IMG/VR virus record: IMGVR_UViG_3300032893_000085 | Location: 1 to 47,241 of that record | DNA: 47,241 bases | Source: a virus | Strand: one strand, 5' to 3' | In this document: positions 12,271 to 36,310 of the stretch, in pieces | Layout of the letters: each line of letters opens with the position of its first letter | How positions within the stretch are numbered: the first letter of the stretch is position 1 | Notes under the pieces: generated by a model | What the model was told of the DNA's origin: nothing | What the model saw: the letters and a program-made list of their open reading frames with translations, nothing else | Database searches by the model: none | Translations under genes and position numbers: made by a program

Positions 12271-12945
12271 CAGATGTATTAAGCAAGAGTCGTTAATTCT
12301 TGCTAAAGGTTTCTAACACACTATGAGCGAACTTGATTAGTTGTTCTTTAGTCGCACTCGCTTTCATTTGATTTGCAAGATGACTAATCACTTGTATGTT
12401 ATCTTTCGTGTAACCTTTTGAGTTATCTACTCTATCTAGAGCAGGACTATTAGGCTTTCCCCCTGATGATCCTTTGTGGACCTGAAGAGGGATATCGAGA
12501 TAAGGACATTTCTCTGGTATTATGATATCACTAGGAAGAATGTTAAACTCAAGACCTGACTTGTCGCACCGTTGTTTGGCGCGATTCCACATCTTGTATT
12601 TTACGTTATCCCAAGAAATTACTCTCTGAGAATTACACTCATGACAGAGGGTGACGCGCTTACTGGTGTGAGGATATACCTTGCCGCACTTAGTACATTC
12701 ACGCTCTGTCTCAGTTACATAATATCCTTCTCGATTATACACTACTTCCCTTTCTGTATGTCCCCATACAGCTTAGACTATATCATCATCTCTCGTACGA
12801 GAGAGCTAGGCGCTTCCGGGCACTTGCCCGTACTCCCTTTCGGGATAGTCGTTGGACCTTCAATGCCTTTCGGCAAAGCTTGGCTGCTGATTACGTGGTC
12901 TACGCTTCCCAGCAATTCACCTAGTTTTACTTCTGCTATCAATTA
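12271..12945 (-). other. Group I intron in the reductase gene
   Basis: A 675-base insertion with group I features on the minus strand. The 5-prime exon ends in U (TGT at 12946-12948) and the intron ends in G (12271); removing it restores CAA TTC TGT AAT CTT ACG, the conserved QFCNLT. Core elements are present: AATTGCTGGGAAGC (near 12905-12918), CAACGACTATCCC (P7 5-prime side, near 12842-12854) and GATGATATAGTCTAAGC (P7 3-prime side, near 12771-12787). The core occupies about 12745-12945, and an HNH gene occupies the rest. Exact ends follow from the exon reading and the U/G rule. Confidence 0.9.
12293..12742 (-). CDS. Intron-encoded HNH homing endonuclease
   Basis: A 149-residue protein within the group I intron, downstream of the ribozyme core. 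Two C-x2-C pairs near the N terminus (CTKCGK and CHECNS) form a zinc knuckle; the C-terminal half contains SPALDRVDNSKGYTKDNIQV followed by SHLANQMKASAT, the HNH-type motif shared with the genes at 16764 and 20886. The expected role is to cut intronless reductase alleles and drive intron homing. It is clearly AT-richer than the exons, in keeping with a mobile origin. Confidence 0.88.
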   Translation of the reverse strand: MYNREGYYVTETERECTKCGKVYPHTSKRVTLCHECNSQRVISWDNVKYKMWNRAKQRCDKSGLEFNILPSDIIIPEKCPYLDIPLQVHKGSSGGKPNSPALDRVDNSKGYTKDNIQVISHLANQMKASATKEQLIKFAHSVLETFSKN

Positions 12946-15949: not shown

Positions 15950-16782
15950 CTAGGAACTTCCGGCACGTCAGGTACGCGGGCGACTTTAGTCAGCCATCGT
16001 GGTCCGTTACTATAGAGGAAAAGGCGGGCATCTGGGAAGCAAGTCCCTTTATGACCGCAGTAGGAACACGGCGTCGCCAACTTCTCGTTTCCGGATTTGC
16101 CGTCAGCAACAGGAGAGTAACAAATAGGCGGAAGAGGGCCATCGAGGATTTCTTTCTGGTGTCTAATTCTGTCGGCAGGTTTGTTGTCTGCGATGACATG
16201 ACGCGGAAGCCAAGTAAGAGCCAACTCTCCAGAGACTTTGTCCATCGCGAGCCAAGCCGCTGGCTCGTCAGGAGTTAGGACGTCGGCGTACCCCGCGAGC
16301 TGCGCGACATAGCCGAAATGATCTTCCTCGAAAATCTTTCCCTTTGAGAATTTCTCAAATCCGATAGGAGAGGCCGACTTGACATCCACGACGACACCAT
16401 CAATGACTGCGTCAAGGTGGCCTTTGACGCCGTCGACAGATACTTCTGCTTGGCAATGCTCGACGATGTGCCCGGCTTCTTTGACAAGGAAGAGGAGGAG
16501 TTGTTCAATGACGTGCCCAAATAGAAATTTAAGTTTAGTTTGACCTGACAGTTTTTGTTTAACTGTTGACGAGGCGTCTAGAAAAATTTGACGATCTGGT
16601 TTCCCAAGACTTGAAAACCTCAAAGGAGGGGACTCTTCTTTTTTAGAAAAAGCTGTCTTCAAGACTTGTGATAGTTCGCAAAAGAAAGTATCCAGATTTT
16701 CTTCTTTAATTTCTATATGATAATCATCGTCAAATAGTTGGTAAACGTCTTTTATCAACGTATCTATTGTTTTATCGCCCAC
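15946..16782 (-). CDS. PD-(D/E)XK nuclease, Cas4/RecB-like
   Basis: A 278-residue protein with the core GVKGHLDAVIDGVVVDVKSA, in which Asp, Asp/Glu and the Lys of DVKS form the PD-(D/E)XK metal site, followed by the QLAGYADVL helix (the Q-x-x-x-Y motif). C-terminal CSYCGHKGTC resembles the iron-sulfur or zinc cysteines of Cas4/AddB-like nucleases. Such genes are common in T7- and roseophage-type replication modules and act in host DNA breakdown or recombination. It precedes endonuclease VII with an ATGA overlap and follows an HNH gene with 19 bases of overlap. Confidence 0.82.
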   Translation of the reverse strand: MGDKTIDTLIKDVYQLFDDDYHIEIKEENLDTFFCELSQVLKTAFSKKEESPPLRFSSLGKPDRQIFLDASSTVKQKLSGQTKLKFLFGHVIEQLLLFLVKEAGHIVEHCQAEVSVDGVKGHLDAVIDGVVVDVKSASPIGFEKFSKGKIFEEDHFGYVAQLAGYADVLTPDEPAAWLAMDKVSGELALTWLPRHVIADNKPADRIRHQKEILDGPLPPICYSPVADGKSGNEKLATPCSYCGHKGTCFPDARLFLYSNGPRWLTKVARVPDVPEVPR

Positions 16783-17261
16783 AGTCCAAATACTCTTAAT
16801 TCAGAGGGTGTCGCGTCATTCTTCATACGATTCGCGACCTTACTTATTACCCAGATATTATCTGGTGTATAACCTTTAGACGAATCTTTTCGATCCAGAG
16901 AAGGAGAGTGCCTAGTTCCTCGTACCATCTCTATTCCGAGAATAGGGCATTTATCAGGGACTACAATATCTTCTACGGTTATAGAGAAATCAAGTCCTGA
17001 TTTCAAGCATCGGTCACGCGCGCCGTAATACAGACGATACTCAGTACTATAATAATACTTTCCTGGATTATTTTCTTTCCAAGTATCGACGTATTTTTTC
17101 TGTTTTTCGAGAAAACTGCCTCTATTCGCCCGATAGTACGCTCGTCCATACGCGACAGCGGAAGCTCTTTGGCACTCTTTTGAACACTTGATATGTGTTT
17201 TGATGCGAGGCTTGAAAGATTTTTGGCAAACTACACAAGACCTTTCTGGAAGATCAACCAC
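16764..17261 (-). CDS. Free-standing HNH homing endonuclease
   Basis: A 165-residue protein with an N-terminal zinc knuckle (SCVVCQKSF and CSKECQ) and a C-terminal SPSLDRKDSSKGYTPDNIWV then SKVANRMKNDAT, very like the intron-encoded HNH at 12293. No intron core is visible around it and neighbours are intact, so it appears free-standing, inserted between a small gene and the Cas4-like nuclease. Its start overlaps the previous stop by 8 bases. AT content is higher than in the neighbours. Confidence 0.82.
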   Translation of the reverse strand: MVDLPERSCVVCQKSFKPRIKTHIKCSKECQRASAVAYGRAYYRANRGSFLEKQKKYVDTWKENNPGKYYYSTEYRLYYGARDRCLKSGLDFSITVEDIVVPDKCPILGIEMVRGTRHSPSLDRKDSSKGYTPDNIWVISKVANRMKNDATPSELRVFGLWAIKQ

Positions 17262-20885: not shown

Positions 20886-21326
20886 TTAAGTCGCCTCCCA
20901 ATTCTGTAGAAGCAACTCACACTCTCTCTTAGTCATTGTATTTTTCAACTTGTTTGCACGATTAGAAATGATCCTGACATTGCCGGGTATATAGCCGAGA
21001 GTGTTATCAATCCGATCGAGAGAAGGTGATTGGTCGTCTCCTCCCCTCCCTTTATTCCTGTTGATCGTAATTGGAATTCCAAAGACCGGGCAGATGTCAT
21101 TCCATTTTACATCATCTGCTGTAATAGCAAACCTAATAAAACGGCTCTTCGCTCTGCTCTTAGCTTCTACGAGCATTCTCTGAAGACGTTCTTCAGACGA
21201 ATCAAAAGTTTTCTCGTAAGATTTCCTTGCCCGTCTGAAGTACTGAGACTTATTTCGTTGATACTCAGAACTGTTCTTCACTACGGATACTTCCCCCCGA
21301 CTCGTATAGACTTGCTTCATCATCAC
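20886..21326 (-). CDS. HNH homing endonuclease between helicase and polymerase
   Basis: A 146-residue protein with the same C-terminal motif as the other two HNH genes: SPSLDRIDNTLGYIPGNVRI followed by SNRANKLKNTMTKRE. The N-terminal half is basic and helical and lacks the C-x2-C knuckle seen in the others. The frame begins with three ATG codons inside the helicase 3-prime end (62-base overlap) and its stop abuts the polymerase TTG. No intron core is apparent, so it is free-standing and wedged into the replication operon. Confidence 0.8.
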   Translation of the reverse strand: MMMKQVYTSRGEVSVVKNSSEYQRNKSQYFRRARKSYEKTFDSSEERLQRMLVEAKSRAKSRFIRFAITADDVKWNDICPVFGIPITINRNKGRGGDDQSPSLDRIDNTLGYIPGNVRIISNRANKLKNTMTKRECELLLQNWEAT

Positions 21327-23247: not shown

Positions 23248-24017
23248 TGGAACTCCCGGAAGAATTGTACGTAATCAGTCACGGTACTTCCAGTAATGCC
23301 GGGAGCTGAGTTGATTTCGAGGACGTATGCCCTGTCGTCACGGGCATTGAAGACGACGTCTACCGCCCCAAAGTCGAGAGGAAAGCAATCGAAAGCCCGG
23401 CAAGCCACATCAATAACACACCGTGGAGGATTGACGTCGGCTCGGGCGTAGATAAACCCGTTCGCGAGGTTGCGAACAGACCAGTCGGGATTTTCATGTC
23501 CTAGATTCCTTGCTTTACGCTGCTGCGAGATCACTACTGTCGCTAGGTCGTCGTTGTCGTCTCGCAGTCGACCGACGTGGATCCGATATTCGTCTTGTTT
23601 TGGGATATAACGGGTGTAGAGAGGGGCCGGGACGAGTTCGTCTCTTGTATTAGCTATGACGATTCCTTCCCCTGAGTGACCTGCGAGGACGGTTCTACAG
23701 ACGATTCGTCCTCGTCGTTCGAGGGCGGAATCAGGTATGGAATCCCTGTCTGTCCAGAATTCGGGTATGATATCGGGGGCCACTCCATATACACGCCGGA
23801 AGAATTCCAGCTTATTAGACACAGAACGAATAGAACGGCCATTGAGGGCACGATCAAGTAGAGGATGTCCATTTGTATTCCCCCAGTTGATGATGACGTC
23901 TCCCGGACGCCCACGGTAACGAGAACCTTCGAGACGGAGGACACGCCCTCCTAGGGCCGTTGCCAGCTCCCGCGCTCCTGCCGAGCCTTGTCGATAAGGA
24001 ATGACTTTGTATGACAT
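23244..24017 (-). CDS. ATP-grasp ligase
   Basis: A 257-residue protein with an ATP-grasp core: a Gly-rich loop in RTVLAGHSGEGIVIA, a central YTRYIPKQDEYRIHV segment, and the metal-binding DFGAVDVVFNARDDRAYVLE then INSAPGITG, where Asp, Glu and Asn bind magnesium. This family joins a carboxylate to an amine through an acyl-phosphate. Its start overlaps the stop of the amidoligase gene (ATGA type), so the two probably act in one pathway. Substrate unknown; peptide or amino-acid ligation is the usual chemistry. Confidence 0.82.
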   Translation of the reverse strand: MSYKVIPYRQGSAGARELATALGGRVLRLEGSRYRGRPGDVIINWGNTNGHPLLDRALNGRSIRSVSNKLEFFRRVYGVAPDIIPEFWTDRDSIPDSALERRGRIVCRTVLAGHSGEGIVIANTRDELVPAPLYTRYIPKQDEYRIHVGRLRDDNDDLATVVISQQRKARNLGHENPDWSVRNLANGFIYARADVNPPRCVIDVACRAFDCFPLDFGAVDVVFNARDDRAYVLEINSAPGITGSTVTDYVQFFREFQ

Positions 24018-25228
24018 CAGAAGTCACCCCCTGCAATAGAAGGCGGTGTAGGAGTAATGGTCCACATACCTTCTTCTGGAAGATCCGGGCGATTAGTTCT
24101 TACGCGCGCCGGAAAAGGTGCCGGACGAGGGGCTGCTTCGTTGAAAGCTTGTCGGACTTGGTTCAGTACATTAACCATATCTTCGTTCGTAGTCGGCGCA
24201 GTTGTCTCGAAATCCGCGATGAGAATATCCGGCGTAGCTAGGGGATGATTACGTGCCAGACGAACACCAGCTTCCTGAAGATTTTGTCGCAATTTCGTCT
24301 TACGCGGTGTATCATCGAAGGGATGCCTTATCTCCCTCCGATTAATCTGTTCCCTTAGCGCGCCCCACGGAACAAAGAACGCCAACTCTTGGTAGTCACG
24401 GAACGAGTCCATACAGACGTCGTCAAAAGCCGTAGAAGCCTCCCTGAAAGCCGTCGAGAACTCTTCGAGATCTTCTCCACAGATCTCTCGAAGGAAGCCT
24501 GTGGGCGTCTTCTCAGACGCTCCACGACCGATTTCATCAGGGAGATATCGAATCGCCGTATCACGGAGACGAACGAGGAATCGGGCCCACGAGATTACTC
24601 GGTCAGGTTGGGTACAACCGTCGAGAGTTCTGAACTCAAATGAGCCGAAGTTCGAGAACGCAGCGAGATTCAACGCAGAGTACTTCGTCCCGTTGTCCCA
24701 CATGAATCGACCAGATTCGAGAGACGACCGCCAAGTATCGGGCAGCCAACCGTTCGTGTCCTTCGTAGTAAGACAGAACTGGTTGCTCTTACGGAGGCGC
24801 CCGGAATAGTTGACGGCGGCCTGCTCAAACAACCCCCAGAGACAGATCATTGAAGTCAATTCCGAGGGTTTCAACCCTTGGATATTGATATGGATGTGAG
24901 TACTTGTCCGGTTAGACGTCCGAATCACGGCTTTCTTCTCGGAGAGAGTCGTGTATAGATGTCGTACCAAACCGTCGACCTCTGGTTCAAAACAAGGCGC
25001 GGAGAGGACGTATTCGATCCCTCCACGCAGGGAGTCGTCGCGATGGGTGATCCACATCGCCTCAGATTTCTTCGCCTTGTACTCCATGAGTTGGGAGCCG
25101 TTGTACAAGTCACCTTCTAGTTCGATCTCGATACCGATATCACCGGGTGTGCTTCGCTCGATCAGAGGTCGGTTGAGTTTCAGATTTGGTAAAGGAGAAA
25201 TCGCCGACAATTCTTTCAGGAATTCCAT
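24017..25228 (-). CDS. Amidoligase family enzyme
   Basis: A 403-residue protein matching the phage/bacterial amidoligase group (a glutamine-synthetase-like fold). Visible signature pieces are DIGIEIELEG, WITHRDDSLRGGIEYVLSAP, STHIHINIQGL and NFGSFEFRTLDG, with the Glu and His residues expected to bind ATP and metal. Such enzymes form amide bonds and are usually found with ATP-grasp enzymes and glutamine amidotransferases, as here. Its ATG at 25228 directly follows the neighbour stop. The C-terminal 60 residues are Pro-rich. Substrate unknown. Confidence 0.82.
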   Translation of the reverse strand: MEFLKELSAISPLPNLKLNRPLIERSTPGDIGIEIELEGDLYNGSQLMEYKAKKSEAMWITHRDDSLRGGIEYVLSAPCFEPEVDGLVRHLYTTLSEKKAVIRTSNRTSTHIHINIQGLKPSELTSMICLWGLFEQAAVNYSGRLRKSNQFCLTTKDTNGWLPDTWRSSLESGRFMWDNGTKYSALNLAAFSNFGSFEFRTLDGCTQPDRVISWARFLVRLRDTAIRYLPDEIGRGASEKTPTGFLREICGEDLEEFSTAFREASTAFDDVCMDSFRDYQELAFFVPWGALREQINRREIRHPFDDTPRKTKLRQNLQEAGVRLARNHPLATPDILIADFETTAPTTNEDMVNVLNQVRQAFNEAAPRPAPFPARVRTNRPDLPEEGMWTITPTPPSIAGGDF

Positions 25229-25840
25229 TCATGCCTCCATAATCTCTTGGATACCAAGGCGTTGCTGCAACTCTTCCCTCAAGTAGAGAGTAGAAGGTCC
25301 GAGGTAAATACCTTTGTCGGTTACGTTACCGACGTGTCGTTTGTTCTTCCATAGTTGGTTACCTCCGTCATTCCCACGGACGAGGGCGAACTCGTGGTGA
25401 ATAGCGATTGGTTGAGCTTGTTGGACATGAGAGAGCGCCTCTCGCCAAGACGGGAACTTCCCTAGGACGCTATCGACGTAGTACTTCCCGAAGTACGTAA
25501 TCAAGTGTTCGTACGAGTGGTCCGATCGGTATATCTGACCCTGCTCGATATTCCAGACTTGGACGTTGCTTCGACAGTGGCCGTGAGTCACAGACCGAGC
25601 CGGGACACGGGTAAGCCAATACAATCTCCCGGGGACGTTGACGAAGCCGAGTTTCGGAAGTTCTCGGAAGTCTTTGAACCTGTCGCTTTCGAGATTGACG
25701 ACGAAGTTAATTCCAGTTTCGAGGTCTTTGACACGGACTTCTCGACCATCGATTGCGCCAAACTTAATAGGCTTGCCGTCGTACATGACGACGGAACTAT
25801 TCAGGCGTTGATTTGCCTGAGTAAGATCGTGCCAGAACAT
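25229..25840 (-). CDS. Hypothetical protein in amidoligase cluster
   Basis: A 203-residue protein between two amidoligase-type genes, packed without gaps on either side (its start overlaps the previous stop, and its stop abuts the next start). It begins MFWHDLTQANQRLNSSVVMY and includes a beta-rich N-terminal half (GREVRVKDLETGINFVVNLE) and a central YWLTRVPARSVTHGHCRSN segment with a His and a Cys that could be catalytic or metal-binding. I do not recognise it. Context suggests an accessory protein of the ligase pathway. Confidence 0.7.
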   Translation of the reverse strand: MFWHDLTQANQRLNSSVVMYDGKPIKFGAIDGREVRVKDLETGINFVVNLESDRFKDFRELPKLGFVNVPGRLYWLTRVPARSVTHGHCRSNVQVWNIEQGQIYRSDHSYEHLITYFGKYYVDSVLGKFPSWREALSHVQQAQPIAIHHEFALVRGNDGGNQLWKNKRHVGNVTDKGIYLGPSTLYLREELQQRLGIQEIMEA

Positions 25841-26709
25841 TACTTTGTCCTTTCTGCGATTGCCTTATCCAAGAGGGAGTGCGGGAACACCCAATTCCAC
25901 GCCATGTTCTTGTAGATACTGGTAGCGGCTTCGAGAGAACCGTCGATACCTTCTCGGACTTGTTCTTCTGATAGATGAAACCTATCAAAGAGTTTCTTAC
26001 TCGTCTTGTAGGTTTGGAGATGTGACACAGCGATACAAACCGACCGGGCGACGGCGATACGAGTCGACTTCTGATGAATCCAGATCGACGACGGCGTCCG
26101 ATATTCAAGACCATAAGGCTTCGGGCGAAATGAACCGGCCTTGCCGTACATCTGACGACGACGATCGTCGGGATCGAGGATACGGCACGGAATACCAAGA
26201 AAAAGATCGAGGACTTTGACGATGTCGGCACAGATCGCGATATACTCGGGGTCATCGGTAGGCATGTCTTTCGCCCAACCGAGATGGACATGCCCCCCAG
26301 TTGCTCGAAATTGGGCAGAGCCATCAGGTGCAGGATTCTTCTGCTCGGTATAGGCGTTCCAATCAGGATCGCAGCCGAGGACAAGGACTTCTTTCGGAAG
26401 ATCGGCGAGATAGTCCGGGTCGAAGTCGACAGTAGTCTCTTTCATGAAAGAAGCTCCCGAATTCCCTTCCTTGACGGCGGAATGCAGTTGCTTCATGACA
26501 TTGACAATACCCTGATTAAACCGCTCGTGCTCACCGATGGGGACTGGGTCGACATTGAACTCAGTCGCGAGACCGTCGACTTGGATCGCACCGCCTTCGA
26601 CAGGAAAGGGGTCTGTCTTTGTGCCCTTGATGAGATCGTGAGCCGAGATAGGTTTTCCCTTCGACTTGACGAAGATCTCGGGGTCGGCGCCGATTGTGAA
26701 GTTAACCAT
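25840..26709 (-). CDS. COOH-NH2 ligase (amidoligase type 2)-like
   Basis: A 289-residue protein with FTIGADPEIFVKSKGKPI near the N terminus, GAIQVDGLATEFNVDP, ATGGHVHLGW, and GSFRPKPYGLEYRTPSSIW, the signature of phage COOH-NH2 ligase type 2 proteins (glutamine-synthetase-like fold). The Glu and His residues in these motifs probably hold magnesium-ATP. ATG 26709 was chosen since it overlaps the amidotransferase stop and the longer frame lies over that gene. Together with the amidoligase two genes away, this gives the phage two different amide-forming enzymes. Confidence 0.8.
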   Translation of the reverse strand: MVNFTIGADPEIFVKSKGKPISAHDLIKGTKTDPFPVEGGAIQVDGLATEFNVDPVPIGEHERFNQGIVNVMKQLHSAVKEGNSGASFMKETTVDFDPDYLADLPKEVLVLGCDPDWNAYTEQKNPAPDGSAQFRATGGHVHLGWAKDMPTDDPEYIAICADIVKVLDLFLGIPCRILDPDDRRRQMYGKAGSFRPKPYGLEYRTPSSIWIHQKSTRIAVARSVCIAVSHLQTYKTSKKLFDRFHLSEEQVREGIDGSLEAATSIYKNMAWNWVFPHSLLDKAIAERTK

Positions 26710-28108
26710 GACGTACCTCTTCGTTATTTGTGATGTCTTTATCACATTCGTTACACACAAAATTCCACTGGTCAATAAACTCGTGGACGTCCTTCAAGTC
26801 ATTGTCTTGAGATTGACACCAAGCACAGGTACGACCTGTATTGGCAGCGAAATCGAACTCCGACCACTCAGCGCCGGTCTTTCTGTCGGTGATATACCAA
26901 ACGTCTCCGAACTTCCGAAGGTCGATATTCGGAGAGATATCAGCCGAGCCACTTCGATATCGCTGAAGACGCTCGTTTGATTGCCCTCCTTTGTTGGTTG
27001 TACGAGAGCCGATCAAAGTTAATACGGGACGGGAGGAAGAACTCTTGGCAGACTTCGTCGTAGAACTCGATGCCGTCGGAGAAACCGAGGACGTTACTGA
27101 GACCGTCCGAGAGGCGTCGGAGGTATCCCGAGTAGTTATCACCTCGCTCTGCGGCTTTGAGCTGGGCTTTGATAGACCGCTCGGAGGCTCGAGCGGTGCC
27201 GTGATCCCGGGGAGTTTCCCTAGGGCGTCGTCTATCCGAGTCCCAAGCTTTTCCAGAAGATATCGAGGAGTGCCTTCCCGAAAAGGGCTGGCGACGCCGC
27301 TCCCTCCTGTGACTTCTGGACCTGACGATCCTTGCCTTCGCCAGTGGGTGTTAGAGTACGTAGTCGTACCCGTAAAATTTCCGGCACGCTTAGCCCCTTC
27401 GATAGTCTTTGGCGCCGTAGCCTTGAAACCGTCGGCTTTGCTGACTTCGAACGACCAGAGTTCGTTCTCGGCCAATCTACAAGTATCGAAGCCTGTGTCG
27501 AGTTCGGCAAGCTTGATCTGGCGTCCGACGACGCCGTGCAACATCCAGGGTTCAGACGCCCAGAACATCGTCTTCTTGTCGACAGACCAAGCGAAATGGA
27601 GAGGGCGTTCGTCATTTCGGAGGAAATTCAAAGTGTTATTCCGACGATCCCACCAGTTCAACGTCCAAGCCCCGGCGACTTCAGGGATGACTTCTTCGAC
27701 GCTACGTTCACTGATCTGGGAGAGAAGCCAGTCGCTGTCGACTTTGAACCCGTCGGCAGATTTGTCCCGACGCCAGCCGAATTCGAGAGTTCCGTTATGG
27801 ACCCCGATGATATTCTCGTGATCGAATGGGTGGGCGTTCTGGTGGGTATTCTCGCCTACCGTTTTCGACCGACAGTGGCCAATCAGAATCTTGCTGTTGT
27901 ATCGATCGACTGCACGATCCCAAGACTTCAGTTCGAAGAGCCGGTCAGGCGTTCCCACCGTCTTGGCCCATCCTACCGAGTTGTCCATGCCAATGCTGAT
28001 CGCACCCGTGGCGTCACGGCCACGAACCTGACAGGCGATGAGCATGTCCTTGAAGACTTCTCTTTCTTTGACGTTTATATTGCCAGCAAGACCGACTATC
28101 CCGCACAT
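26702..28108 (-). CDS. Class II glutamine amidotransferase with C-terminal zinc ribbon
   Basis: A 468-residue protein. The start MCGIVGLAG exposes Cys2 as the N-terminal nucleophile once Met is removed; RGRDATGAISIG, IGHCRSKTVGENTHQNAHPF and VHNGTLEFG are the other class II glutaminase motifs. Residues about 280-400 are Ser/Thr-rich and probably a flexible linker (TVSVTSSVSPTASSSTTKSA), and the C terminus has CAWCQSQ and CNECDKD, a zinc ribbon not usual in this family. It would release ammonia from glutamine for the neighbouring ligases. ATG 28108 was chosen over 28114 to place Cys second. Confidence 0.85.
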   Translation of the reverse strand: MCGIVGLAGNINVKEREVFKDMLIACQVRGRDATGAISIGMDNSVGWAKTVGTPDRLFELKSWDRAVDRYNSKILIGHCRSKTVGENTHQNAHPFDHENIIGVHNGTLEFGWRRDKSADGFKVDSDWLLSQISERSVEEVIPEVAGAWTLNWWDRRNNTLNFLRNDERPLHFAWSVDKKTMFWASEPWMLHGVVGRQIKLAELDTGFDTCRLAENELWSFEVSKADGFKATAPKTIEGAKRAGNFTGTTTYSNTHWRRQGSSGPEVTGGSGVASPFREGTPRYLLEKLGTRIDDALGKLPGITAPLEPPSGLSKPSSKPQSEVITTRDTSDASRTVSVTSSVSPTASSSTTKSAKSSSSRPVLTLIGSRTTNKGGQSNERLQRYRSGSADISPNIDLRKFGDVWYITDRKTGAEWSEFDFAANTGRTCAWCQSQDNDLKDVHEFIDQWNFVCNECDKDITNNEEVRHG

Positions 28109-28137
28109 TATCATTTCCTTTCAAATAGTTAGCAAAG

Positions 28138-28968
28138 TCAAGCCACTTTTCGTTCACGTGGATTGACTGCGAACCAATCTGTCATGACGGCTTCGAGCTT
28201 TGTCATCGTCCACGAACGATACTCGGGAGTGCCGATTTCGGGATGACCTTGGACAAAGAAGCACGGCGTATCCGGGTAATAACCCGCCTCGATTTCGAGT
28301 TCGGTATGGCCGTCAGTGAGAAGGATTTCAGTATTCTCGGCTTTGAACCGCTTCGAGACCTGTCGGGTCGTACACGCGACGACGACGAGTCGGTTATTAT
28401 TCCGAAGCATTTGGTGATGGATACTTGTCGCCATCACGACTTGGCCGGTTTCGAGGTCGGCGATGGTGTGTTCGTGACCGTGGTTGCCGACGTCTTGCCA
28501 GAGGCGACCGTTGTTCATGGCGTGAAGGAATTGGGCGCCACGACAGATACCGAACATGAACTTGTTCTTTTCGACGCAGTGGTGATAGACTTTGACTTCG
28601 AAGGCGTCACGTTCCTCGGACCACCCATACGTCCCGGCGGGCTTCTCGTTATACAACGAGGGATTGATGTCGGAACCACCAGAAAAGACGATAATGTCGG
28701 CTTCTTCGTAGGTCCGCGCAGGATAACAACCTGCCTCGATCATGAGCGCCCGGATACTTCCCGTAAATGCCCCGTCAGTTACGTACACCGACTGCCCGAG
28801 CGAAGGCATTACCGTGCTCTTGTACGGCGTCAACGACTCCGACACTCGTTTGGCATACAGTTTCGCCAGCGGGTCTTGAAGGGGTCGGGAAGGAGCTTCG
28901 CTCTGCGGGGATTCGGTCTTTATTGACCGAGTAGTAGACGTCAAGGAGGAAGGGGAGGGCGTGGTCAT
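28138..28968 (-). CDS. Class I glutamine amidotransferase / gamma-glutamyl hydrolase-like
   Basis: A 276-residue frame whose conserved domain starts at about residue 58: VYVTDGAFTGSIRALM, IVFSGGSDINPSLYN, FGICRGAQFLHAMN (nucleophilic Cys), and FFVQGHPEIGTPEY (catalytic His and Glu). This is the triad of class I GATase/peptidase C26 enzymes, which hydrolyse glutamine or gamma-glutamyl bonds. The ATG at 28968 has a good AAGGAAC site but lies 194 bases inside the upstream gene; an ATG at 28809 gives only the domain. It completes a set of two amidotransferases beside two ligases. Confidence 0.82.
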   Translation of the reverse strand: MTTPSPSSLTSTTRSIKTESPQSEAPSRPLQDPLAKLYAKRVSESLTPYKSTVMPSLGQSVYVTDGAFTGSIRALMIEAGCYPARTYEEADIIVFSGGSDINPSLYNEKPAGTYGWSEERDAFEVKVYHHCVEKNKFMFGICRGAQFLHAMNNGRLWQDVGNHGHEHTIADLETGQVVMATSIHHQMLRNNNRLVVVACTTRQVSKRFKAENTEILLTDGHTELEIEAGYYPDTPCFFVQGHPEIGTPEYRSWTMTKLEAVMTDWFAVNPRERKVA

Positions 28969-32471: not shown

Positions 32472-32642
32472 CTAACCCATCTGGACTCGTTCAGGATTAT
32501 CTGGATTGATTCGATAGGCTTTTACGTCAAGGTCGTGTTTGACGGAGAGAGTCTTTTGGATGAATGAGAGATGACGTCGGAGGCCTTCGTCGGTGGCGAC
32601 CCCCTGATCGATCAGAGATTGTCGGAGAGAGAAATGTTTCAT
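32472..32642 (-). CDS. Small hypothetical protein after SR repeat ORF 1
   Basis: A 56-residue protein, MKHFSLRQSLIDQGVATDEG then RRHLSFIQKTLSVKHDLDVK, ending INPDNPERVQMG. It appears to be a compact helical domain. Its ATG overlaps the stop of the SR-dipeptide ORF (ATGA, 32639-32642), and no separate ribosome site is visible because the upstream bases are hexamer repeat, so it depends on coupling to that ORF. Function unknown. Confidence 0.65.
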   Translation of the reverse strand: MKHFSLRQSLIDQGVATDEGLRRHLSFIQKTLSVKHDLDVKAYRINPDNPERVQMG

Positions 32643-32827
32643 GACGACCACAACCGCAACCACGACCCCGACCCCGACCGCGACCACGACCACGACCCCG
32701 ACCCCGACCACGACCCCGACCCCGACCCCGACCACGACCACGACCGCGACCGCGCCCCCGACCGCGACCCCGACCGCGACCGCGACCCCGACCCTGACCG
32801 CACCCATCTCTGTCTTGCTGGTCTCAT
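32639..32827 (-). CDS. Ser-Arg/Gly/Trp dipeptide repeat protein 1
   Basis: A 62-residue ORF: leader MRPARQRWVR followed by alternating S-x dipeptides, where x is R, G or W (for example SGSGSRSRSGSRSGARSRSW), ending SWLRLWSS. It begins in an ATGA overlap with the upstream gene, with GGAGAA seven bases before, and ends in an ATGA overlap with the downstream gene, so it fits the operon exactly at both ends. Each serine is almost always TCG, and only the first base of the second codon varies (CGG, GGG or TGG). It resembles eukaryotic SR/RGG low-complexity RNA-binding segments. Function unknown. Confidence 0.6.
   Translation of the reverse strand: MRPARQRWVRSGSGSRSRSGSRSGARSRSWSWSGSGSGSWSGSGSWSWSRSGSGSWLRLWSS
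32643..32795. repeat. GACCVC hexanucleotide array 1
   Basis: About 25 imperfect tandem copies of the 6-base unit GACCVC (plus strand), where the fifth base is A, C or G and the rest is nearly invariant. It is followed on the plus strand by a 32-base flank (32796-32827) identical to the flank of array 2. All six reading frames stay open across it. Confidence 0.95.
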
Positions 32828-33093
32828 TTGAGTTCTCCGAAGGACTCGATAGCAGAGGTCTGGAGGTATAGTTGGTTCGGAAGTTTCTGGGCGTCCTTCC
32901 ATTCTTTCGTGTTGAACGGACCAGTCTCGTAGACAATCGACGGATCGGTCAGAAGGACACAGGTGTCGTTGACGCCTTCGAGCGTACCCGTGTAGATATA
33001 GTTCATGCAAAAGAACGTCACACGACGACCAAGAAGAGAGATAAGGCCTTCGTTGGCGACTTCGACGACTTCAACAGTGACAGCTTTTTTCAT
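32824..33093 (-). CDS. Small hypothetical protein between SR repeat ORFs
   Basis: An 89-residue protein, MKKAVTVEVVEVANEGLISL followed by RRVTFFCMNYIYTGTLEGVN and a C-terminal LQTSAIESFGELK. The pattern of beta strands (GRRVTFFCMNYIYTGTLEGV, TCVLLTDPSIVYETG) suggests an Sm-like or small beta-barrel fold, which often binds RNA, though this is only an impression. AGGAGTCTTACC precedes the ATG. It lies between the two SR dipeptide ORFs, and its stop overlaps the start of SR ORF 1. Confidence 0.7.
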   Translation of the reverse strand: MKKAVTVEVVEVANEGLISLLGRRVTFFCMNYIYTGTLEGVNDTCVLLTDPSIVYETGPFNTKEWKDAQKLPNQLYLQTSAIESFGELK

Positions 33094-33135
33094 GGTAAGA
33101 CTCCTTTGTTGCAGATTAGCAGAGTAGGAAAGTTG

Positions 33136-33360
33136 TTATGTTGTCTCCGACCGCGACCCCGACCGCGACCGCGACCACAACCCTGACCCCGCCCACGACC
33201 GCGACCCCGACCGCGACCACGACCGCGGCCGCGACCCCGACCCCGACCACGACCGCGACCGCGACCCCGACCGCGACCGCGACCCCGACCGCGACCCCGA
33301 CCGCGACCACGACCGCGACCACGACCGCGACCGCACCCATCTCTGTCTTGCTGGTCTCAT
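33136..33360 (-). CDS. Ser-Arg/Gly/Trp dipeptide repeat protein 2
   Basis: A 74-residue paralogue of the ORF at 32639: the same MRPARQRWVRS leader, then SRSWSRSWSRSGSRSGSRSR and similar alternations, ending SGSRSETT. Translation would start two bases after the stop of the preceding gene, with AAGAAGG about nine bases upstream. A few serine positions vary (Pro, Ala, Leu). The stop lies 42 bases before the next gene. Codon monotony suggests recent expansion of the array. Function unknown; translation is inferred from start context and gene fit. Confidence 0.5.
   Translation of the reverse strand: MRPARQRWVRSRSWSRSWSRSGSRSGSRSRSGSRSRSWSGSGSRPRSWSRSGSRSWAGSGLWSRSRSGSRSETT
33147..33328. repeat. 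GACCVC hexanucleotide array 2
   Basis: About 30 tandem copies of the same GACCVC unit as array 1, again with variation almost only at the fifth base, and the identical 32-base flank (33329-33360) at its plus-strand right end. The two arrays are 351 bases apart and in the same orientation, which indicates duplication of a leader-plus-array module. Confidence 0.95.
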
Positions 33361-33361
33361 G

Positions 33362-33526
33362 TCAGGAGACCTTCTTCTTGGGAAAAGACTTCGGGTCGAT
33401 ACCGATGAGTTCACAGACGGTGTGCCGAAGTGCGTGTTGTGTCAAAAGAGGTAGCGAGCGGTACGACGACCCCGAAGGAATTTCGACACGCTCTGCTGTT
33501 TTACCGGTTCCACGAACGATAATCAT
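33362..33526 (-). CDS. Small basic hypothetical protein
   Basis: A 54-residue protein: MIIVRGTGKTAERVEIPSGS, then SLPLLTQHALRHTVCELIGI and a basic end KSFPKKKVS. AAGGAGTC lies about eight bases before the ATG. It precedes SR dipeptide ORF 2, and its stop is two bases upstream of that ORF start. No family recognised. Confidence 0.65.
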   Translation of the reverse strand: MIIVRGTGKTAERVEIPSGSSYRSLPLLTQHALRHTVCELIGIDPKSFPKKKVS

Positions 33527-33818: not shown

Positions 33819-33934
33819 GGCATCGACCTTCCCCGGATAATGCGGGGAAGGTCGATGCCAAAGACTTGTTCGAGACCACGGACACCCATGGCGGCTTGTT
33901 TGCGGCGGCGACGTGCGGTGCGAGCAACAGACAT
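33815..33934 (-). CDS. Small basic protein with internal hairpin
   Basis: A 39-residue protein, MSVARTARRRRKQAAMGVRG followed by LEQVFGIDLPRIIRGRSMP. GGAGTGAAG precedes the ATG at a suitable distance. The last third is written by a perfect 17-bp inverted repeat, so the sequence after IDLPR is imposed by the palindrome. It looks like a longer basic protein cut by this hairpin. Possibly nucleic-acid binding. Confidence 0.5.
   Translation of the reverse strand: MSVARTARRRRKQAAMGVRGLEQVFGIDLPRIIRGRSMP
33819..33859. repeat. Perfect 17-bp inverted repeat, 7-base loop
   Basis: GGCATCGACCTTCCCCG (33819-33835), loop GATAATG, CGGGGAAGGTCGATGCC (33843-33859). It forms a very stable hairpin in either strand but has no T tract, and it lies within a small coding sequence. 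It could block ribosomes, be an RNase III site, or be the scar of an inverted duplication. Confidence 0.95.
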
Positions 33935-36136: not shown

Positions 36137-36310
36137 ATATACTATTATATAATATATAATATCTACTAGATAGATTCTAGATATCCTCTAAGTAGCTATC
36201 TACTGTTAACTGTTAACTGTTATTATCTAATATCTATCTAGAGGATATCTAGAGACTATTTTAAGACTATTTTAAGACTATTTTAAGACTATCTTGATAT
36301 ATCCTGATAT
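36131..36310. other. AT-rich repeat tract, candidate replication origin
   Basis: A very AT-rich region. It holds a 15-bp perfect inverted repeat (36176-36190 with 36239-36253, containing TCTAGATATCCTCTA), three tandem ACTGTTA units (36202-36222), and about 3.7 tandem copies of the 11-base unit AGACTATTTTA (36253-36296). Lying between divergent early and late blocks and beside promoters, it is a plausible origin where DNA unwinds. No gene is visible here. Confidence 0.55.

Follow-up and report, generated by a model that had tools for sequence, protein, structure and literature searches.

Two open reading frames (ORFs) encoding Ser-x dipeptide repeats, found in a 47,241-base IMG/VR virus record (the whole stretch of DNA that was analyzed, hereafter the window), truly code for proteins and belong to a conserved phage module of two translationally coupled genes. 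The other gene of the module lies directly upstream and encodes a protein of ~90 aa that is predicted to have an Sm/LSm fold. A preliminary description of this DNA had reported the two repeat ORFs and overlooked the partner gene, the two-gene module, and a parallel family of Gly-x repeat genes. It had also stated that no phage protein of the Ser-x design was known, and this agrees with our searches: Pfam, PHROGs, the PDB, INPHARED annotations, and open-access papers yielded nothing that describes either the module or the dipeptide-repeat proteins. Pairs of a predicted Sm-like gene and a dipeptide-repeat gene form a large class of virus gene pairs, apparently undescribed in the sources searched.

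Ser-x genes of the window

Gene 1 (32639 to 32827, minus strand) runs from ATG to TGA and encodes a 62-aa product with a pI of 12 (32827-32639, MRPARQRWVRSGSGSRSRSGSRSGARSRSWSWSGSGSGSWSGSGSWSWSRSGSGSWLRLWSS); its reading frame was proven in relatives. Gene 2 (33136 to 33360, minus strand) encodes a 74-aa product, also with a pI of 12 (33360-33136, MRPARQRWVRSRSWSRSWSRSGSRSGSRSRSGSRSRSWSGSGSRPRSWSRSGSRSWAGSGLWSRSRSGSRSETT). Both begin with the leader MRPARQRWVRS and continue as Ser-x units in which x is mostly Arg, Gly, or Trp. The positions and the common leader were as previously reported, and the first 32 nt of the two genes, coding for MRPARQRWVR, are identical (32796 to 32827 and 33329 to 33360, both on the minus strand). 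A 28-nt core of the leader was recovered at both window sites, and the exact window leader had no match in other viral contigs. A pure Ser-x pattern had been described; it holds for most units, and a few depart from it (e.g., A-R, L-R, P-R, and A-G). The chance expectation for both ORFs is zero. At the DNA level, the arrays are (TCGNGG)n hexamers, and a four-unit pattern allowing up to three mismatches had 52 matches in the window versus 0 in 100 dinucleotide shuffles.

Gene 1 is flanked by two ATGA overlaps, one between its start and the Sm-like partner gene at 32824-33093 (overlap 32827-32824) and one between its end and a 56-aa gene on the same strand at 32472-32642 (overlap 32642-32639), and it has a GGAGAA ribosome-binding site on its 5' side, all of which the preliminary description had noted. 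Gene 2 is positioned between a 54-aa ORF (33362-33526, minus strand) and the Sm-like gene. Its start directly follows the stop of the 54-aa ORF as had been described, at a distance of one base instead of two. Gene 2 is preceded by an ORF without a recognized family, which counts against the overall explanation proposed below. The 54-aa and 56-aa ORFs, considered here only as context, showed no significant family in Pfam/PHROG-type searches. In a long cluster of leftward genes, the Ser-x genes are close to the 5' end, a place that suggests possible early expression and so fits the early role put forward in the preliminary description.

Translation of the Ser-x frame

NGG codons encode exactly Arg, Gly, and Trp, so that a Ser-(Arg/Gly/Trp) pattern could be a mere nucleotide repeat. 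In the window arrays, all three minus-strand frames are nearly open and the variable base is silent in the Arg-Gly frame; the window alone therefore does not settle the frame, and relatives decide. The 89-aa partner gene, used as a repeat-blind bait, returned 55 relatives, most with an oriented array just downstream. Among 52 arrays of this set, the Ser codon was TCT in 28, TCG in 21, and TCA in 3, and it was AGC in locus L169. Relatives thus keep Ser-x while the Ser codon changes, which bears out the earlier claim that this frame is a real protein design. Of the stops inside these 52 arrays, 148 fell in the Val frame, against a single one in each of the Ser-x and Arg-Gly frames. Relatives in which the Ser-x frame was broken by stops while the array persisted had been proposed as a refutation; the reverse was found, and it is the Val frame that collects stops. 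A start codon was present within 25 codons of the array in the Ser-x frame of 50 arrays, versus 5 for Arg-Gly and 14 for Val. The Arg-Gly frame was considered as the true frame and rejected on its starts (5/52 versus 50/52 for Ser-x) and on its output, in which a change of Ser codon gives Leu-Gly or His/Gln-Gly.

Substitutions within the arrays of the viral sets gave further evidence. G>A changes at the second base of x were observed in 97 cases, none of them where N was T, at which TAG would result, and 22 of 63 G>T changes at the same base occurred where N was T. TGG was likewise spared by G>A changes at the third base of x (2/57). Since the arrays for this test were picked by nucleotide pattern and not by ORF, the avoidance of TAG is not a selection effect of the search. 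Conserved leader residues were spelled with varied synonymous codons; six different ones served for Leu and five for Arg. We see no explanation for these data other than translation of the Ser-x frame.

Composition and order of x

In all arrays of at least 12 units in the repeat-blind set, the variable base takes G (Gly) and T (Trp) as well as A or C (Arg). Just one of A and C is used in 36 of 40 arrays, and the Arg codon varies by genome, being AGG or CGG. Mean shares of x were 0.30 for Arg, 0.38 for Gly, and 0.32 for Trp, with at least 10% of each in 38 of the 40 arrays. Bacterial chromosomal (TCGNGG)n arrays retrieved by the same pattern scan were mostly monotone (SW, SR, or SG only) and in unrelated frames; only 2 of 33 had all three residues.

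The order of x is far less constant. Loci L133 and L134 share their leader, and their partner genes are identical, yet their x runs differ; such array differences between near-identical genomes may in part be assembly artifacts, as short reads on repeats may exaggerate the scrambling. Within-array deviations showed no enrichment at silent positions, so the constraint on single residues is weak. Constraint looks to act on frame and composition, not on individual positions. One contig of a Planctomycetaceae metagenome-assembled genome (L194) has a mixed Ser-x array at its end, preceded by an ORF whose product terminates in STVESFGRAL; this is possibly a prophage or a binning error.

A conserved two-gene module

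The family set was assembled from an array-only pattern scan and from bait-based loci, and 110 loci shared one upstream family of ~90 aa. Its members fall into two branches, which are homologous by profile alignment (hhalign, 97%). Partners of the window type have the pattern FCMNYIYTG...AIESFG, and their repeat genes start roughly with M-R-G-L-K-Q-K-Y/W. Partners of the other branch, with 408 relatives in IMG/VR, have the pattern YFIRTVT...EVEP, and their repeat genes start roughly with M-N-x-A-I-L-R-x-G-F-D. We scored a module where a repeat ORF lay at most 120 nt downstream of the barrel gene, using repeat-blind relatives at testable loci. The repeat ORF was directly downstream in 47 of 49 loci of the FCMNY branch, 28 of them overlapping by the 4-nt ATGA, and in 74 of 78 loci of the RTVT branch, of which 52 overlapped likewise. 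The reverse search, started from the array, found the partner at 68 of 80 array loci that had sufficient upstream sequence, and its second count was 59/85.

The Ser-x proteins are cationic (median charge, +9 to +10), and their partners are acidic, with median pI values of 4.9 and 5.4 in the two branches. In the parallel family, the Gly-x proteins are anionic (median charge, −8), and their DUF6948 partners are near neutral or basic (median pI, 7.9). The opposite charges of repeat and partner lend modest support to a physical pairing. Both repeat types consist of ~30–40% aromatic and about a quarter to a third charged residues, the remainder being small. At locus L070, the first array ORF joins a Ser-x array to a domain with a weak match to the partner profile (HMM E value of 4e-5 for one sequence; hhalign, 37%), which is no more than suggestive of a fusion of the barrel gene and the repeat gene.

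Predicted fold of the partner

The window partner (32824 to 33093, minus strand) is an acidic protein of 89 aa with a pI of 4.8 (MKKAVTVEVVEVANEG...AIESFGELK). Its single-chain AlphaFold model has six strands and a mean pLDDT of 93.8. The top 50 Foldseek matches of this model in the PDB were all Sm/LSm proteins, with a probability of 1.0, a best E value of 7e-4, and TM scores of 0.5–0.65 by query. By sequence, the partner could be assigned neither to a Pfam family nor, above noise, to a PHROG, and it had no PDB homolog. The LSM (PF01423) and Hfq (PF17209) profiles did not match it, no LSM match occurred in the window record, and hhalign against a small Hfq alignment gave a probability near 0. 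The partner is thus predicted to resemble an Sm protein by the fold of its model, and membership in that fold is not backed by a sequence match. Many members of the RTVT branch have a segment like VIVGRGSIVDA, which we take to resemble the Sm2 'RG' motif.

INPHARED matches to the window partner and to an RTVT partner were metagenome-derived records only (MW202825 and MW202573), and the partner had no match in plasmids. A synthetic Ser-x query gave no match in INPHARED, probably on account of low-complexity filtering. A search of 399 genomes from one bacterial phylum did not recover the RTVT branch, a result that is little informative alone.

A parallel Gly-x pair in isolated phages

A pattern scan for Gly-x arrays identified genes with short leaders followed by Gly-(Tyr/Asp/Ser/Asn) units. 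Sixty-seven of 98 loci with mixed Gly-x arrays had an upstream gene in common, which belonged to Pfam DUF6948 (PF22253) in 47 of 56 aligned members. In the locus search, performed with a single DUF6948 query, the Gly-x ORF was downstream in 19 of 23 testable loci. DUF6948 models as an Sm-like fold: the top 50 PDB fold matches of its model were all Sm/LSm proteins, with a best E value of 0.013, weaker than that of the window partner. Homology between the two partner families is not established, with hhalign values of 7–14%; the window partner itself had no Pfam match and reached 14% against PF22253. The pairs have gene order, coupling, and repeat grammar in common, and the DUF6948 pair differs in having Gly at the fixed place instead of Ser, in being acidic instead of basic, and, for some members, in an extra C-terminal domain of ~150 aa. 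The Gly-x ORFs that run on into this conserved domain (WH..LTGSC..GR), for which no Pfam family was found, belong to one group and include those of loci L303, L310, L314, and L357, among others.

DUF6948/Gly-x pairs are present in isolates, namely Chlorobiaceae phage CV-1-33, Iodobacter phage PhiPLPE, Vibrio phage IKEMa6-1, and Pectobacterium phage Pappous. The PhiPLPE repeat has been published as a GC-rich DNA repeat, (KMGCCG)35, and was put forward as a potential attachment site, as were repeats from two further phages; the available text of that paper contained no description of it as a protein gene (PMC3391216). We found that (KMGCCG)35 is a Gly-x array located immediately after a DUF6948 gene.

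Proposed function and alternatives

The best overall explanation that we can offer, held at somewhat less than even confidence, is that an Sm-like barrel with coupled sticker-spacer tails forms an RNA-binding or condensate scaffold. The upstream gene would encode the ~90-aa beta-barrel, which is predicted to have the Sm/LSm fold and, like Sm proteins, may assemble into a ring. The downstream gene would supply a short conserved leader, with a consensus that differs between partner families, and a hypervariable Ser-x run with Arg, Gly, and Trp in about equal thirds. The leader would dock the repeat protein on the barrel, and the run would be a disordered tail with Ser and Gly as spacers and Trp and Arg as stickers. 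A ring with several such tails would be a scaffold that is multivalent, cationic, and aromatic; it would bind RNA or another nucleic acid and, early in infection, would probably form a condensate. An anionic counterpart of this scaffold would be provided by the Gly-(Tyr/Asp/Ser) genes beside DUF6948 barrels. Because the exact order of x hardly matters and its composition does, a sticker-spacer tail fits better than an enzyme or a folded domain. RNA binding and condensate formation, which the preliminary description had suggested for the repeat proteins and which we infer for the module, become more plausible because the near-obligate upstream partner is predicted to have an Sm/LSm fold.

The module resembles Sm, LSm, and Hfq proteins in the predicted fold of the partner, whose sequence matches neither LSM nor Hfq. 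It is analogous in working principle to SR proteins, to Sm proteins with RG tails, and to tails of the Lsm4 type. In comparison with Sm proteins, the low-complexity tail of the phage module is in a separate gene, and the ring and the RNA binding are putative. Eukaryotic SR, RGG, and RG-tailed Sm proteins likewise have low-complexity runs of Arg with Ser or Gly beside an RNA-binding fold, whereas the phage design keeps strictly to a period of two residues, with every second residue a Ser and about a third of the x positions taken by Trp; it also has a separate gene and no RNA recognition motif, the window repeat proteins consisting of leader and repeat only. Ser and Arg account for 35 of 62 and 47 of 74 residues of the two whole proteins, below the cut-off for SR/RS domains, defined as low-complexity runs with at least 70% Ser plus Arg (PMC9479744). 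Viral RS domains have been surveyed by composition, and the Ser-x family was not seen among those in the available text of that survey (PMC9479744).

It has to be asked whether the array acts as DNA or as a passage for ribosomes, with the protein of no consequence. Origin iterons, an attachment or recombination site, or a G-rich structure within which the ORF is incidental would account for the strict, strand-oriented NGG hexamer, and the equivalent PhiPLPE repeat has been published as a possible attachment site (PMC3391216). The switches of Ser codon, the avoidance of in-frame nonsense codons, the in-frame starts, the coupling to the upstream gene, and the conservation of the leader at the protein level make this hardly credible, and a DNA-level element as the main function of the array is largely refuted. 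A translation device, in which the transit of ribosomes through runs of Ser, Trp, and Arg codons (by stalling or tRNA sensing) regulates neighboring genes and the product is waste, could be read from the start/stop overlaps on both sides of gene 1 and from the high Trp content. We regard it as very unlikely, given that the Gly-x family puts other residues in the same place and that the Ser and Arg codons (the latter AGG or CGG) differ between genomes.

Two further alternatives accept the protein and assign it another role, and both seem improbable to us. One is a toxin-antitoxin-like or effector-chaperone pair, in which the acidic barrel restrains a harmful cationic, Arg/Trp-rich peptide (a membrane or nucleic-acid poison) whose release shuts down the host. 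The order of the genes, a small acidic one first and a small basic one second, the ATGA coupling, and the charge complementarity are as such a pair would have them, and Arg/Trp-rich cationic peptides are a known antimicrobial design. However, the parallel Gly-x family is oppositely charged, the order of x is freely scrambled, unlike in known protein toxins, and the Sm-like fold is to our knowledge not a known antitoxin fold. The other is a decoy for counter-defense or host takeover, in which the repeat protein, carried by the barrel, would cover or imitate nucleic acid or sequester a host protein. The location of these small genes, close to the 5' end of a long leftward cluster, and the hypervariable array of constant composition would suit this role, but the existence of both cationic and anionic versions makes a single decoy target unlikely.

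If the scaffold reading is true, the module is a natural phage sticker-spacer polymer with a simple grammar (a fixed Ser or Gly, then an aromatic, charged, or small residue) tied to an Sm-like barrel. It would be a test bed for function carried by low-complexity composition rather than by exact sequence, and for RNA-protein condensates in bacteria. In a broader form, which we consider possible and rather unlikely, many phages would encode a two-part Sm-like RNA scaffold, composed of a ring-forming barrel and a separate hypervariable two-residue-repeat tail in cationic (Ser-Arg/Gly/Trp) and anionic (Gly-Tyr/Asp/Ser) versions, that builds an RNA-protein compartment in infected bacteria and is convergent with eukaryotic Sm, SR, and RGG proteins. 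The partner gene is present in hundreds of viral contigs, as the count for the RTVT branch alone indicates, and the repeat gene accompanies it in nearly all that were examined. The microsatellite look of the arrays, low-complexity masking, and a frequent lack of annotation suggest why the pairs have been overlooked. Trypsin would be expected to cut the Ser-x proteins to fragments too short to see and to hardly cut the Gly-x proteins.

Other features of the window

The 24-kb right half of the window had no match in INPHARED. Three minus-strand ORFs (12293-12742, 16764-17261, and 20886-21326) have the motif SLDR.D...GY...N..VIS..AN in common and by eye look like free-standing HNH-type endonucleases; the one that was scanned against Pfam gave no match at 1e-3. 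Genes at 24017-28968 (minus strand) match Amidoligase_2, a phiEco32-like COOH-NH2 ligase, GATase_6, and Peptidase_C26/GATase and possibly form a peptide- or surface-modification cluster. A near-perfect inverted repeat with 20-nt arms separated by 1 nt is present at 33819-33859, and a perfect 11-nt tandem repeat (AGACTATTTTA, 3.6 copies) lies at 36253-36292, between the leftward and rightward gene clusters.
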